This document shows, piece after piece, positions 22,873 to 43,845 of a stretch of 43,940 nucleotides of DNA (positions are counted from its first letter, which is position 1; each line of letters opens with the position of its first letter). Both the position numbers and the translations under genes were made by a program. This DNA comes from a virus. Under the pieces are notes generated by a model. It did not search any database. It was given only the letters and a program-made list of their open reading frames with translations, and was not told the DNA's origin. Location: positions 1 to 43,940 of IMG/VR virus record IMGVR_UViG_3300014501_000028; one strand, 5' to 3'.

Positions 22873-23235
22873 ATGTCACCATTCGCTGATTCCGACATTC
22901 CAGCGATGATCGGGCGTTTTGGTTCCCCGATCACCATCGCTGGAATTGCGGGCATCGCGCTGGTGGACGCGCAGGACCAGGCGTTCAATTCTGACGGGCA
23001 GGACGGTGTCACCGTCATGCCCGTCACCTCCGCGATCATCCAGACCTCCGCGTTCCCGAATATTTCAATCGATGACGCGGTGCTCCTGAACGGAATCGAT
23101 TACACGGTCCGCGACCGGATGCGAATAGACGACGGCGCGCTCACCAAAGTTTTTCTAGGGACCGCAGCTACGCTGTACGACGGCGGCGGGTTCCCCGATG
23201 CACCGGAAGAGGAAATCGACGGCGGGAGTTTTTAG
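22873..23235 (+). CDS. head-tail joining protein (gpFII-like)
   Basis: 120 aa from ATG 22873, 3 bp after the previous stop. Beta-rich: FGSPITIAGIAGIALVDAQD, DAVLLNGIDYTVRDRMRID, GALTKVFL. This matches the small beta-barrel head-tail joining proteins (lambda gpFII) in size, fold pattern and position. Stop abuts the fibre gene. Confidence 0.65.
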   Translation: MSPFADSDIPAMIGRFGSPITIAGIAGIALVDAQDQAFNSDGQDGVTVMPVTSAIIQTSAFPNISIDDAVLLNGIDYTVRDRMRIDDGALTKVFLGTAATLYDGGGFPDAPEEEIDGGSF

Positions 23236-40413: not shown

Positions 40414-40662
40414 GTGGCGGATCTCCTCTCGGTTTCGGATGGCAAATGGAAAACGGAACGGCTGTTACTTTGGGACGTAGTCCATCGGCTCGAGGACGCG
40501 CAAAAAAGGGAGAAGGAAAAACTCGAGGGGGATATTCGCGCTGCGCACGGGAAGATCCGTTCGATGGAGAGCTGGAAGTGGAAGGCGTGGGCGGCGAGCT
40601 CGGCGGCCGGGTTCCTGAGCATCGCGGTGGTCGAATTGTTGAAGCTGCTTTTCGTGAAGTAA
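40414..40662 (+). CDS. coiled-coil plus C-terminal membrane anchor (XhlA-like lysis protein)
   Basis: 82 aa from GTG 40414. Helix RLLLWDVVHRLEDAQKREKEK, then a further coil, then one transmembrane segment at the C-terminus (AWAASSAAGFLSIAVVELLKLLFV). This is the form of XhlA/holin-accessory proteins. First gene of the lysis/membrane cassette. The start is chosen from frame length; no strong ribosome site. Confidence 0.6.
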   Translation: MADLLSVSDGKWKTERLLLWDVVHRLEDAQKREKEKLEGDIRAAHGKIRSMESWKWKAWAASSAAGFLSIAVVELLKLLFVK

Positions 40663-40685
40663 AAATCTGAAGGGGGAAAACGAAG

Positions 40686-40895
40686 ATGCGGATTATTTTC
40701 TTCATGGTGGCGTCCGGGTTCACGGGTGTGGCGATCGGTTACGCATTGAAGGCGTGGATTGGAGTGAAGAAAGCGGCGTTAGAAATCGACCTGAAGTCCT
40801 GGCGGGCCCGGCTCGATTCCGCATTGACCGCGGATGAGGCGACGGCCAAGCGCGCGGTGACCTCGGTACTCGCGGAAATCAAAGCGAAGCTCTGA
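40686..40895 (+). CDS. 69-aa single-span membrane protein
   Basis: ATG 40686 with AAGGGGG upstream. N-terminal transmembrane helix (MRIIFFMVASGFTGVAIGYAL), then a soluble Lys/Ala-rich helix (KSWRARLDSALTADEATAKR). Could be a small spanin- or antiholin-like protein of the lysis cassette. Not assigned to a family. Confidence 0.55.
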   Translation: MRIIFFMVASGFTGVAIGYALKAWIGVKKAALEIDLKSWRARLDSALTADEATAKRAVTSVLAEIKAKL

Positions 40896-40921
40896 TTGTG
40901 TTTCCGTACTCCAGCCGGGTG

Positions 40922-41212
40922 ATGCCCCTCCTGACGAAAATTCTGCACTGGCACGTCAGTGCGGTTTCCGAAGATGACGGCAGCGCATCGAGCTCGCGCA
41001 TCGGCATGCTCGCGGTGATTGGCTCGGCTTGTTTTTGCTTTGTTTTTTTCGTGGTGAAAACTCACCAGATGCCGGACGGCGGGCAGCTCCTGGGATTGTC
41101 CAGCATCATTACCGCGGGCGCATCGCTGTACGGTTTGAACGCGTGGAAAAACCGGGCGCAGGTGTGCGACCCGAATAAGGGGAACGACAATGCTAACCCG
41201 AACCCATCTTGA
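40922..41212 (+). CDS. two-span holin-like protein
   Basis: 96 aa from ATG 40922 (GTG 40898 would add eight residues). N-terminal LHWHVSAVSEDDG, first transmembrane helix IGMLAVIGSACFCFVFFVV, second LLGLSSIITAGASLYGL, short charged tail. This arrangement, with the N-terminus in the cytoplasm, fits small phage holins. Overlaps the spanin-like gene by 23 nt. Confidence 0.65.
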   Translation: MPLLTKILHWHVSAVSEDDGSASSSRIGMLAVIGSACFCFVFFVVKTHQMPDGGQLLGLSSIITAGASLYGLNAWKNRAQVCDPNKGNDNANPNPS

Positions 41213-41828
41213 ATTCCTGGCGGTGCTGGTGGTGATCGCGGGCTTGTGGTTTGGCGTGAAGTCCTGGCGCGCGCAGCGCGAGGCTCGCGAGACGGCCGAG
41301 GCCACGGTCCAACAAAACGCGAAGGTGGCCCAGGTGGCCGGCGACCAGGTGAAGGCGCTGCAGGGGAAGATCGATGCGCGCGATGCCGCGGAAGCGACCC
41401 TCGAGCAAAACATCCGGACGGAAACGGCCGCGGCGAAAACTCCCGCGCAGATAGACAAGTATATCCAGGCGCGCCTGGCGCCCGGGGAATCGATCGGGAT
41501 CCCGGCGCCGACGGCCGCCAACCCTCTCCCCGCGGCGGAAATCGAAATCCCCCAGGCGGATCTGCCGGCGCTCCGTGACCAGATGGCGGAGTGCGAGCTG
41601 GACAAGACCGGGCTGTCGGAATGTCAGGCGGTCCGGCTCGACGAAGCGGCGAAGGAAAAGGCGGCCGGCGAAAAGCTCTCCGCAGTCTCGAAAGAACGCG
41701 ACGCGTACAAGCAGGAGCTCGCCGGCGGGACGTTCTGGAAGCGCACCAAAAAGGGCGCGGAGTTCATCGGGTTCGGCCTGGCGGCCGGAATTGCGGTGAC
41801 CTGCGGGTCTGGACACTGTAAGAAATAG
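41190..41828 (+). CDS. Rz-like inner-membrane spanin candidate
   Basis: 212 aa. N-terminal membrane helix (LEFLAVLVVIAGLWFGVKSW), then a long periplasmic coiled coil (REARETAEATVQQNAKV) and a Pro-rich part near 110, a second coil, and a hydrophobic C-terminal segment (FIGFGLAAGIAVTCG). The plan resembles i-spanins, but no embedded lipoprotein (Rz1) reading frame with a lipobox was found, and the C-terminal hydrophobic stretch is unusual. Confidence 0.55.
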   Translation: MLTRTHLEFLAVLVVIAGLWFGVKSWRAQREARETAEATVQQNAKVAQVAGDQVKALQGKIDARDAAEATLEQNIRTETAAAKTPAQIDKYIQARLAPGESIGIPAPTAANPLPAAEIEIPQADLPALRDQMAECELDKTGLSECQAVRLDEAAKEKAAGEKLSAVSKERDAYKQELAGGTFWKRTKKGAEFIGFGLAAGIAVTCGSGHCKK

Positions 41829-41837
41829 CGGTATAGT
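41810..41837 (+). promoter_or_regulatory. sigma70-like promoter at the start of the moron region
   Basis: TGGACA (41810-41815), 16 bp, TATAGT (41832-41837): five of six consensus bases in each box. It overlaps the 3' end of the spanin-like gene and points rightward. It would make a transcript starting near 41844 into the long leader before 42269. Probably active in the lysogen, as no phage factor seems needed. Confidence 0.65.
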
Positions 41838-42268
41838 TTGCACGCATGAAGGTCTAAAGTTGCCATCGCCCCGATCCACGAGTCGGGGCGCGTTTGAAAA
41901 ACGGGGCGCCGATTTGAATCCTCCCAAACTTTCGGCGCCTCACCCCCTGGGCTTACTCACTCGCGAATGCGGGTGTGTGCGGAGCCTGGCCGGGATCCGC
42001 GTCCGGCGCTGCGCAGGTCATGCCCCTCCGGAGAAGCGGACCGTTCGGCGCCGCGATCGCCTCGACATCGCCCGCGGGAACCCGGTGTTAGGCGCTGAAA
42101 TCCCAAAGGTCACCGGCGCCCCTTCGGACTAGCTCGTAACTTCATGGTACGCAAGTACCATTGGTTGGGTCGGTTCCGGATGGGAAGATGGGGTGCAGAA
42201 AGAAAGCGCCCCGCACCAGTGCTAGAAACACTGATGCGAGGCTAACCAACAAAGTGAGGTGATTCACC
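41838..42268 (+). ncRNA. hairpin-rich leader or small RNA of about 430 nt
   Basis: No convincing gene. Predicted stems: CGCCCCGA/TCGGGGCG (41867-41890); GGCGCCGA/TCGGCGCC (41905-41939); ATGGTAC/GTACCAT with a GCAA tetraloop (42144-42161); GGGGTGC/GCGCCCC (42190-42212); CAGTG/CACTG (42217-42233). The first CGCCCCG can also pair with 41902-41908, which would break the second stem, so alternative folds exist. Finally GCTAAC (42241-42246) can pair with GTTAGC (42271-42276), enclosing GTGA/TCAC around the Shine-Dalgarno and start of the next gene. Candidate cis-regulatory RNA. Confidence 0.5.
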
Positions 42269-42463
42269 GTGTTAGCTAACCAGATTTTACCCGATTTCCA
42301 GCTCCCCGAACAAAGGTTCCTAGCCAGCGAGTTGATCGGCGACGCCTACATGGGCGCCCTCGCAGCGGTCCGCGCGTTCGCAACCGCCAACCAGGCGAAC
42401 CGCAAACTGCAGCGGGATCTGGACGAGAAGCTCTTCGCCGGCTTGATGGCGGTGCCAGCATGA
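42269..42463 (+). CDS. 64-aa helical protein, first moron gene
   Basis: GTG 42269; GAGGTGA lies 6 nt upstream but inside a predicted hairpin. Helical with ELIGDAYMGALAAVRAFATA and NRKLQRDLDEKLFAGLMA. No family recognised. Stop overlaps the next start (ATGA). Confidence 0.65.
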   Translation: MLANQILPDFQLPEQRFLASELIGDAYMGALAAVRAFATANQANRKLQRDLDEKLFAGLMAVPA

Positions 42464-42678
42464 GGACCTTCATCGTGACCGCGGTCTTCCCTGAAATGGA
42501 CTCGGCGGACCAATGCCAGATCACGATGGTGGAGGCGACCACCTTCGATGCAGCCGCGGCCCGCGGGTATCGCGAGATCCGCCATTCGGAAGCTCTGGAG
42601 CATCTGTTCGCTGGGAAGCGGATCTCGGAAATCCGACTTACGGTTCAAGCGTTGAACGAAAAGTTTCCGACTCACTAG
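42460..42678 (+). CDS. moron protein, paralogue of 43110-43313
   Basis: 72 aa from ATG 42460. Small alpha/beta: strand RTFIVTAVFPE, strand QITMVEATTFD, helix AAAARGYREI, then GKRISEIRLTVQ. The gene at 43110 has the same plan (KVFTVTAFFPE ... GKRISVVQLTI). Duplicated within the same region; function unknown. Confidence 0.7.
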   Translation: MRTFIVTAVFPEMDSADQCQITMVEATTFDAAAARGYREIRHSEALEHLFAGKRISEIRLTVQALNEKFPTH

Positions 42679-42714
42679 CATCAAAAAATCGCGGACGCAA
42701 AAAGGGAGCATGAC

Positions 42715-42891
42715 ATGACAGGTTACGGACTGATCGCAGTAGCGTTGATAATTCTGTACTTCGTTCCAGCGGTCCTGGGCAGGAAGAAACGAACGGCGAA
42801 TTCGATCGCGATCGTGAACCTATTTTTTGGTTGGACGGTCATCGGTTGGGTGGGGTGCCTCGCGTGGGCGGCATCGCCGGACAAAAAGTAA
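42715..42891 (+). CDS. imm: superinfection immunity protein, T4 Imm-like family
   Basis: 58 aa from the second of two close ATGs (42715; the first, 42710, meets a stop). GGGAG 6 nt upstream. Two transmembrane helices: GLIAVALIILYFVPAVLG and, after a basic loop (GRKKRTANS), IAIVNLFFGWTVIGWVGCLAWA. The NLFFGWTVIGW block is the signature of the T4 Imm superinfection-immunity family, which blocks DNA entry of related phages at the inner membrane. Good fit to a lysogeny-expressed moron. Confidence 0.85.
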   Translation: MTGYGLIAVALIILYFVPAVLGRKKRTANSIAIVNLFFGWTVIGWVGCLAWAASPDKK

Positions 42892-43034
42892 TCGTCCTGA
42901 GTACTACCGCGCAAACCGCGCGAAAGGGCTAGACTCGGTTTTTAATTCTGCCATTTTTTCTGACCCGGCTCTGCGGGAGAGAAAACCCAAGGGACCAGGG
43001 TCGCTGGCGAAGATGGCGGAGAATAGAACGGCGC

Positions 43035-43089
43035 CCCGCGCGCGGCCTGGGTTACGAGGACTCCGGCCGCGGGCGGGTTTTGTTTTTTG
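43035..43089 (+). terminator. rho-independent terminator after the moron operon
   Basis: CCCGCGCGCGGCC (43035-43047) pairs with GGCCGCGGGCGGG (43065-43077) with a single mismatch, followed by TTTTGTTTTTT. It would end transcription from the promoter at 41810 and separate the last gene. Confidence 0.8.
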
Positions 43090-43109
43090 CGGGGGAAAAG
43101 GATGTGCCC

Positions 43110-43313
43110 ATGAAAGTGTTCACCGTGACCGCTTTCTTTCCGGAAGTGAAGCCGGCTCACTCCGCCTGGCAGACGGTGACGGTTCCTGCCGGGGATCTGG
43201 CGGTGGCTGCTACCCGGGCGCTCCATGCGATCCGCCGGCGGCCTGGTGTCGCCGGGAAGCGGATCTCGGTGGTACAGCTCACGATTCGGGACTCGGGTGG
43301 GAAGGCGGAATAA
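43110..43313 (+). CDS. moron protein, paralogue of 42460-42678
   Basis: 67 aa from ATG 43110. KVFTVTAFFPEVKPAHSAW, a strand (TVTVPAGD), helix AVAATRALHAIRR, and the ending GKRISVVQLTI. Same fold plan and key blocks as the 42460 gene. Its own unit after the terminator at 43035-43089. Last gene before attR. Confidence 0.65.
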   Translation: MKVFTVTAFFPEVKPAHSAWQTVTVPAGDLAVAATRALHAIRRRPGVAGKRISVVQLTIRDSGGKAE

Positions 43314-43377
43314 TTCTGTCCCGTGTCCCTGGGGTGTCCCGGGACGGCGGTGGGACGCGGGACGCTGGCGCCGGCTC

Positions 43378-43400
43378 CTGGTGCCATGTAGGTGCCCGCG
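43378..43400. repeat. right arm-type repeat
   Basis: CTGGTGCCATGTAGGTGCC at 43378-43396 is identical to 301-319, and GTAGGTGCCCGCG at 43388-43400 matches 371-383. It lies 94 bp inside attR. Upstream (43319-43366) is a cluster of short GTCCC/GGGAC inverted repeats that could hold further protein sites. Confidence 0.6.
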
Positions 43401-43490
43401 GGGTGCAATTTCCTGGGTGCTGGCGCAACCCGGGTTTGTGTGTTTTCTTATGTTTACGTTGCCCCGCACGTCCCTGCAACCCCCGTTATT

Positions 43491-43532
43491 GGATTATGAG
43501 TCCACTGCTCTAACCAGCTGAGCTACGGGCCC
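43491..43532. repeat. attR: attR core, partial tRNA
   Basis: This 42-bp copy is identical to 206-247. It contains only the 5' part of the tRNA (acceptor 5' strand, D arm, anticodon loop), so the tRNA here is not functional. To its right, on the minus strand, TAGTAT about 15 bp upstream of the tRNA 5' end could be the original host -10 box, now cut off from the complete tRNA at the other end. Confidence 0.93.
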
Positions 43533-43563
43533 GCACCTTCACAACATACTACACTGAAAAGAC

Positions 43564-43845
43564 TTAGTGGATATATGCCACTTCGGCATGAGATTGCTCA
43601 GCAGCCTTGGTGCTACTTTTGGTGTCAGTTAGAGCTCCTGAAGTGCTTCCCGTCAGCAGTTCGACAGCGGCCAAGGTGTGCTTCGGGGCGAGATGGGAAT
43701 AACGTACCGTCATTGATATGGTCTTGTGCCCCACTAATTCCTGCACGGTGCGGAGATCTACCCCGGCCATCACCAATCGGCTGGCAAATGTATGTCGGAG
43801 GCAATGCCCCTCCGTGTCAACATCTCTGAGACAGCAGTAGTACTC
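43564..43845 (-). pseudogene. C-terminal remnant of a tyrosine integrase from an earlier element
   Basis: The minus-strand frame (up to the in-frame stop at 43846-43848) reads GHCLRHTFASRLVMAGVDLR, then QELVGHKTISMTVRYSHL: the H-x2-R box, GHK and the catalytic Tyr of an integrase, but the N-terminal three quarters are missing. Upstream sequence to the window end shows no matching frame. It lies 31 bp from attR in the orientation expected for an integrase next to its own tRNA target. Not part of the present prophage. Confidence 0.85.

Follow-up and report, generated by a model that had tools for sequence, protein, structure and literature searches.

A predicted antisense RNA over the translation start of a small phage gene, and its relatives before mobile-element genes

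Our results make it highly probable that positions 42197-42294 of the window (the whole stretch of DNA that was analysed, a single IMG/VR virus record of 43,940 nt) hold a cis-antisense RNA gene that overlaps the translation start of a small gene, ORF A, and would repress its translation. We place the RNA on the opposite strand because of covariation, G.U usage, a minus-strand promoter, a terminator hairpin and U-turn loops, and the same observations speak against a riboswitch, thermometer or attenuator that works by folding of the mRNA itself, as the initial annotation had proposed for the hairpin-rich region 41838-42280. That proposal holds up in so far as a regulatory RNA element lies at the ribosome site of an operon of small genes, the last of which encodes an Imm-like protein. 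Comparison of homologous copies establishes the structure and its strand, the predicted promoter, tail and loop motif, the position over the start site and the spread over mobile-element genes. The features of the region are as follows.

41810-41837, plus: sigma70-like promoter (promoter scan)
41868-41941, plus: two strong GC-rich hairpins at the 5' end of the region (z -3.6; homologues not found)
42144-42161, plus: hairpin ATGGTAC-GCAA-GTACCAT (folding and comparison with phage copies)
42197-42277, minus: predicted antisense RNA of ~81 nt, 5' end near 42277 and 3' end near 42197 (covariance model match, folding)
42197-42207, minus: U-rich tail GCTTTCTTTCT 3' of H1 (the family profile is T-rich here; scan)
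42208-42242, minus: hairpin H1, terminator stem of 14 bp with the 7-nt loop UUUCUAG (YUNR = CUAG)
42240-42281, minus: hairpin H2, over the start codon and Shine-Dalgarno, 12 bp in the window copy
42256-42262, plus: Shine-Dalgarno GAGGTGA of ORF A (sequence; kept in phage homologues)
42269-42463, plus: ORF A, 64 aa, GTG start, predicted target gene
42284-42289, minus: -10 TAAAAT, within ORF A codons 6-7 (TAnnnT nearly invariant)
42308-42313, minus: -35 TTGTTC, 18-nt spacer in the window copy (TT kept across the family)
42460-42678, plus: ORF B, 72 aa, small phage family (FFPEVKPAH; relatives found)
42715-42891, plus: Imm_superinfect-like membrane protein, 58 aa (PF14373, E 1e-13)

Folding and covariation of the region

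Much of the earlier description of the region is borne out. As a whole, it folds better than shuffled sequence (41838-42290, -196.8 versus -173.2 kcal/mol, z -3.8, 0 of 100 shuffles as good), it is preceded by the sigma70-like promoter TGGACA-16-TATAGT, the sole such promoter-like site in 40500-43600 (chance expectation 0.6), and it contains the stems that had been claimed, namely 41868-41890, 41902-41941, the GCAA hairpin and the start-site stem. The stretch 41860-41945 has a z of -3.6, and CGCCCCG at 41867 can, as read from the sequence, pair with either 41884-41890 or 41902-41908. The GCAA hairpin is nested in a longer stem, 42121-42185 (z -4.8 for 42120-42240). At its position other phage copies carry GGTAC-N7-CYATNG, a sense-promoter-like site that lends weak support to a conserved sense promoter; because this motif occupies the same place, we speculate that the GCAA hairpin may be an operator instead of a leader structure. 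Group I and II introns, RNase P, tmRNA and attC were dropped on inspection by eye. For the 5' ~350 nt of the region (41838-42190) the phage collection contains no relative, a BLAST comparison of 41800-43440 with phages gave no matches, and among relatives of the tail-tip gene the lysis cassette is common and the region itself is absent from the stretches compared.

The proposed plus-strand hairpin masking the ribosome site does not hold by itself, since 42225-42300 has a z of -0.18, the same as shuffled sequence; on the minus strand the same positions fold better than shuffled (z -2.8). For 42180-42290 the values are -8.4 on the minus and -3.8 on the plus strand, and the minus strand of 42151-42300 is the second-strongest folding signal in the window (z -6.5; 150-nt windows, both strands). 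The strongest lies at 22876-23025 (z -8.6 plus, -6.0 minus). Masking as such is retained, but its strand and mechanism are not, the structure being on the minus strand; covariation in homologues exists, but only in the last ~100 nt, 42197-42294, and there too the minus strand carries the conserved structure, and not, as for a riboswitch or thermometer, the strand of the mRNA.

The first six copies were gathered by protein or DNA similarity, without use of structure. Single-protein scans with ORF A and with ORF B found no relatives; a profile from ORF B aligned with its paralogue ORF B' (43110-43313, 39% identical) led to six viral loci. The copies comprise the window, three of these ORF B-profile viral loci, a Terriglobia MAG and one more virus, which was picked up with a DNA pattern; another viral pattern yielded just two chance matches, with the element absent from both. 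In each of the five non-window copies sequence resembling 42197-42294 lies immediately 5' of a small ORF, and the alignment of the six is nearly gap-free until similarity stops after the first ~12 codons, beyond which the ORFs diverge. In every one of the six, 14 of 14 pairs of H1 are standard when read on the minus strand, with double changes in 10 of the 14, and both hairpins together reach 97.5% standard pairs with 15 doubly changed pairs, which none of 500 shuffles equalled and which compares with only about 40-45% in slid registers. The RNAalifold consensus energy is -49.2 kcal/mol for the minus and -21.4 kcal/mol for the plus strand.

The two strands differ in their wobble pairs. Minus-strand G.U pairs in H1, two or three per copy, are A.C mismatches on the plus strand. 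The ratio of G.U to A.C on the minus strand is 16:0 for the first six copies (sign test about 3e-5), 104:4 for 48 copies found by covariance model and 97:6 for 41 hold-out copies. Coding cannot account for this bias, because H1 lies 5' of the start codon. As judged from the aligned sequences, these results show the selected structure to be that of the minus strand of 42197-42294. The wider family was collected with covariance models that favour this structure, and the first six copies and the -35 are independent of them; 54 copies were aligned with model R1 and the 41 hold-out copies took no part in model building, giving 95 in total.

Promoter, hairpins and tail of the predicted RNA

In the first codons of the target gene, 5' of the hairpins as the minus strand reads, the family carries a conserved putative sigma70 promoter of the form TT, 17 nt, G-n-TAnnnT. 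The T, A and T of TAnnnT are kept in 52, 53 and 53 of the 54 copies and in 41, 41 and 40 of the 41 hold-out copies, the G two bases 5' of it in 45/54, and the two bases of the -35 TT, at 17-nt spacing, in 42/54 and 31/54 (hold-out 31/41 and 27/41), with little conservation in the spacer between TT and GnTAnnnT (54-copy profile). We count the -35 as evidence for an antisense promoter because it lies outside the search model and was nevertheless found again in the hold-out copies. Where ORF A or its counterpart reads Leu across the -10, all of the first six copies use CTA or TTA; these two codons make up 6% of Leu codons in the phage genes of the window. By sequence conservation, then, the element has its own opposite-strand promoter, as RNA-OUT and sar do, and this promoter lies outside both hairpins, unlike the Frpo type, in which -35 and -10 sit inside a folded stem. 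The window copy departs from the family in its weak -35, TTGTTC, and in its spacer of 18 instead of 17.

The window copy matches the models at 42198-42294 on the minus strand with 98.7 bits (R1) and 88.9 bits (R2), and the predicted RNA, from 42277 to about 42197, folds into exactly two hairpins (-41.8 kcal/mol). H1 and the T-rich tail form a predicted intrinsic terminator: a terminator scan flags 42242-42208 on the minus strand, and the family reads CCGCTTnnTTT-like 3' of H1, a C interrupting the U-tail in most copies. The H1 loop has 6-7 nt and carries the YUNR motif of U-turn recognition loops in 45 of 54 copies (16.0 +/- 3.2 in shuffled loops) and in 31 of the 41 hold-out copies (11.7 +/- 2.9). 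The RNA is complementary to the Shine-Dalgarno and the start codon, the latter standing at the same element position in nearly all copies. The sequences of H1 and H2 also form hairpins in the mRNA, although weaker ones, so that the sense leader may also act in cis. Among the 95 copies H1 has 94 distinct sequences, and loops and stems differ even within one genome.

Prophage setting, spread and target genes

The window looks like a prophage. At 171-247 it has a complete tRNA-Met(CAT), beside which lies an integrase-like ORF (261-1472), and by inspection the 5' half of the tRNA is repeated directly, 206-247 being identical to 43491-43532 over 42 nt, so that the two probably represent attL and attR. 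The C-terminus of a second integrase, at 43564-43804 on the minus strand and outside the repeat, suggests an older element next door. Upstream of the region lies a phage gene, 41190-41828, which stands at the same position in related phages and probably encodes a spanin. The host is probably an acidobacterium, because the relatives are one Terriglobia MAG and otherwise viruses of environmental metagenomes.

Downstream, the stop codon of ORF A, which has no Pfam match, overlaps the start of ORF B (ATGA), from which we infer probable translational coupling of the two. Start regions resembling that of ORF A occur at loci L023, L026, L027, L031, L032 and L051; loci L024, L025 and L028 carry ORF B without the element, and the module is therefore optional. 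ORF B (FFPEVKPAH...GKRISEVRLTIKE) represents a small conserved uncharacterised protein family in these phages (L023-L028, L033-L045), where its neighbours are often a small membrane protein (RAWQSPEFKRDLERLRERR) and a terminase gene. After the Imm-like gene and directly before ORF B', a strong GC stem followed by TTTTGTTTTTT (43035-43090) makes a convincing candidate for a plus-strand intrinsic terminator.

Among 399 Terriglobia-class genomes the element was found in 121 with R2 and 85 with R1 (E <= 1e-3), with up to 10 copies per genome, and in a sample of the phylum R1 matched 19 of 297 genomes. A plasmid collection held no copies, and with R2 run on 24 loci of relatives together with the window, the window copy alone was found at E <= 1. 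The genes under the element are mutually unrelated and, besides those named by Pfam, mostly small ORFs of no known family. Casposase-type Cas1 accounts for 11 of 54 and 6 of 40 targets (17 of the 94 proteins scanned), the ArdC N-terminal domain for 5 and 3, the Tyr/Ser recombinases for 2 and 2 as resolvase and for 2 and 1 as phage integrase, and a Mu transposase for 1. Casposons carry a family-B DNA polymerase, and such a polymerase (PF03175) is present in both Cas1 loci examined. Casposon-like Terriglobia loci (L092 1987-8584, L108 842-7550) combine Cas1, whose C-terminal part is zinc-finger-like, with the PF03175 polymerase and small conserved ORFs; a quick look found no casposon end repeats in the two. 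At nine further loci (L139, L142, L143, L145, L151, L152, L155, L159 and L165) the element precedes tiny ORFs of 35-62 aa with similar ends (for example, MAAREVIHF...EPPP and ...RIAHPPP), which are possible leader peptides.

Proposed mechanism, alternatives and known systems

In our model, a leftward sigma70 promoter in the first codons of ORF A would give rise to an RNA of ~81 nt that folds into H2, containing the complement of the start codon and Shine-Dalgarno, and H1, and ends at the U-rich tail. Being fully complementary to the ORF A leader, this RNA would pair with nascent or finished mRNA through contacts of the U-turn loop and block ribosome binding or initiation at ORF A; through translational coupling, ORF B and perhaps also the Imm-like gene would be lowered. 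With an H1 sequence particular to each copy, silencing would mainly affect the gene next to that copy. The purpose may be to shut mobile-element genes down once a lysogen or host is established while allowing their expression in a cell just entered, and a zygotic use, in which expression lasts until enough RNA has built up, is plausible. Transcription, pairing, translational repression and biological purpose are what we infer from this arrangement. The copies appear to form a family, undescribed so far, of off-switches before mobile-element genes in Acidobacteria. It is conceivable, although on balance we lean against it, that the element is a transferable antisense lock, acquired repeatedly by unrelated mobile elements of Acidobacteria (phages, casposon-like and integrative elements) at the 5' ends of genes for transposition, recombination and anti-restriction, each lock with a private loop and stem and allowing brief expression on entry, before the accumulating RNA silences the gene.

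An mRNA leader that masks its own ribosome site, as a thermometer, translational operator or riboswitch, could explain why the Shine-Dalgarno lies within a small covarying stem (GTGA/TCAC, GCGA/TCGC, GTGG/CCAC) and why the region as a whole outperforms shuffles; we nevertheless regard sense-strand regulation as improbable, because the plus-strand H1 carries its two or three A.C mismatches in each copy where the minus strand has G.U, the plus consensus energy is below half of the minus, the plus start-site hairpin is at the level of shuffled sequence, and the conserved minus-strand promoter would be left unaccounted for. Somewhat less probable still is that the minus strand acts as folded single-stranded DNA, either as an Frpo-like promoter for early expression after entry or as a STAXI-like or recombination site. 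DNA forms G.T pairs too, the genes involved belong to mobile elements (ArdC, recombinases and Cas1 among them) and some genomes hold up to 10 copies; against this, the promoter has canonical spacing and sits in linear coding DNA, not within the hairpins, the U-rich tail and U-turn loops are features of RNA, and start codon and Shine-Dalgarno always lie at about the same position.

We give the slimmest chance to a type I toxin-antitoxin system, with the antisense RNA as antitoxin and the small ORF A as toxin. Its layout is the same, in that an antisense RNA covers the start site, the genes are those of mobile elements and there are several copies, and some copies do stand before tiny hydrophobic ORFs (45 aa in L114, for example). 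However, the element is not confined to small hydrophobic targets, those that can be identified being mostly enzymes (Cas1, ArdC, recombinases and a transposase), and ORF A of the window is not a membrane peptide.

The element, in the window and in the other copies tested, matches no Rfam 15 family in cmscan, including Acido-1 (RF01686) and Acido-Lenti-1 (RF01687), two structured RNA candidates from Acidobacteria (PMC2864571), and the literature searched described no RNA family matching the element and nothing on RNA control of casposons. Among known systems, the antisense RNA we propose is like RNA-OUT of the RNA-OUT/RNA-IN pair of IS10 in being a short opposite-strand RNA over a translation start; RNA-OUT is 69 nt long, its first 35 nt are complementary, and it blocks ribosome binding on the transposase mRNA (PMC5006887). 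Unlike RNA-OUT, the element has two hairpins and U-turn loops, shares no sequence relation with it by Rfam search, belongs to another phylum and serves unrelated genes in phages, casposon-like loci and elsewhere. The sar RNA of phage P22 is ~70 nt long, has two hairpins and lies over the ant start site. It too is a phage antisense RNA, one that inhibits anti-repression (PMC5415839); the layout proposed for the element is like that of sar, and sar has one target in one phage group whereas the element is a broad family with many. Antisense systems initiated by loop-loop contacts have, as a general feature, a YUNR U-turn in the recognition loop (PMC4485353), and plasmid countertranscribed RNAs, such as RNAII of pMV158, resemble the proposed RNA in having their own promoter and terminator and in blocking translation; RNAII, however, lacks a U-turn and targets a replication gene, and the identified targets of the element include no replication initiator. 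Antisense control of mobile genes has so far been a matter of single cases (IS10 RNA-OUT, P22 sar and plasmid copy control). Here, one RNA architecture is present in about 30% of the sampled Terriglobia-class genomes, before unrelated genes that include casposase-type Cas1. It thereby offers a ready natural set of antisense pairs, probably orthogonal, and opens the control of casposon and phage genes in Acidobacteria to direct testing.
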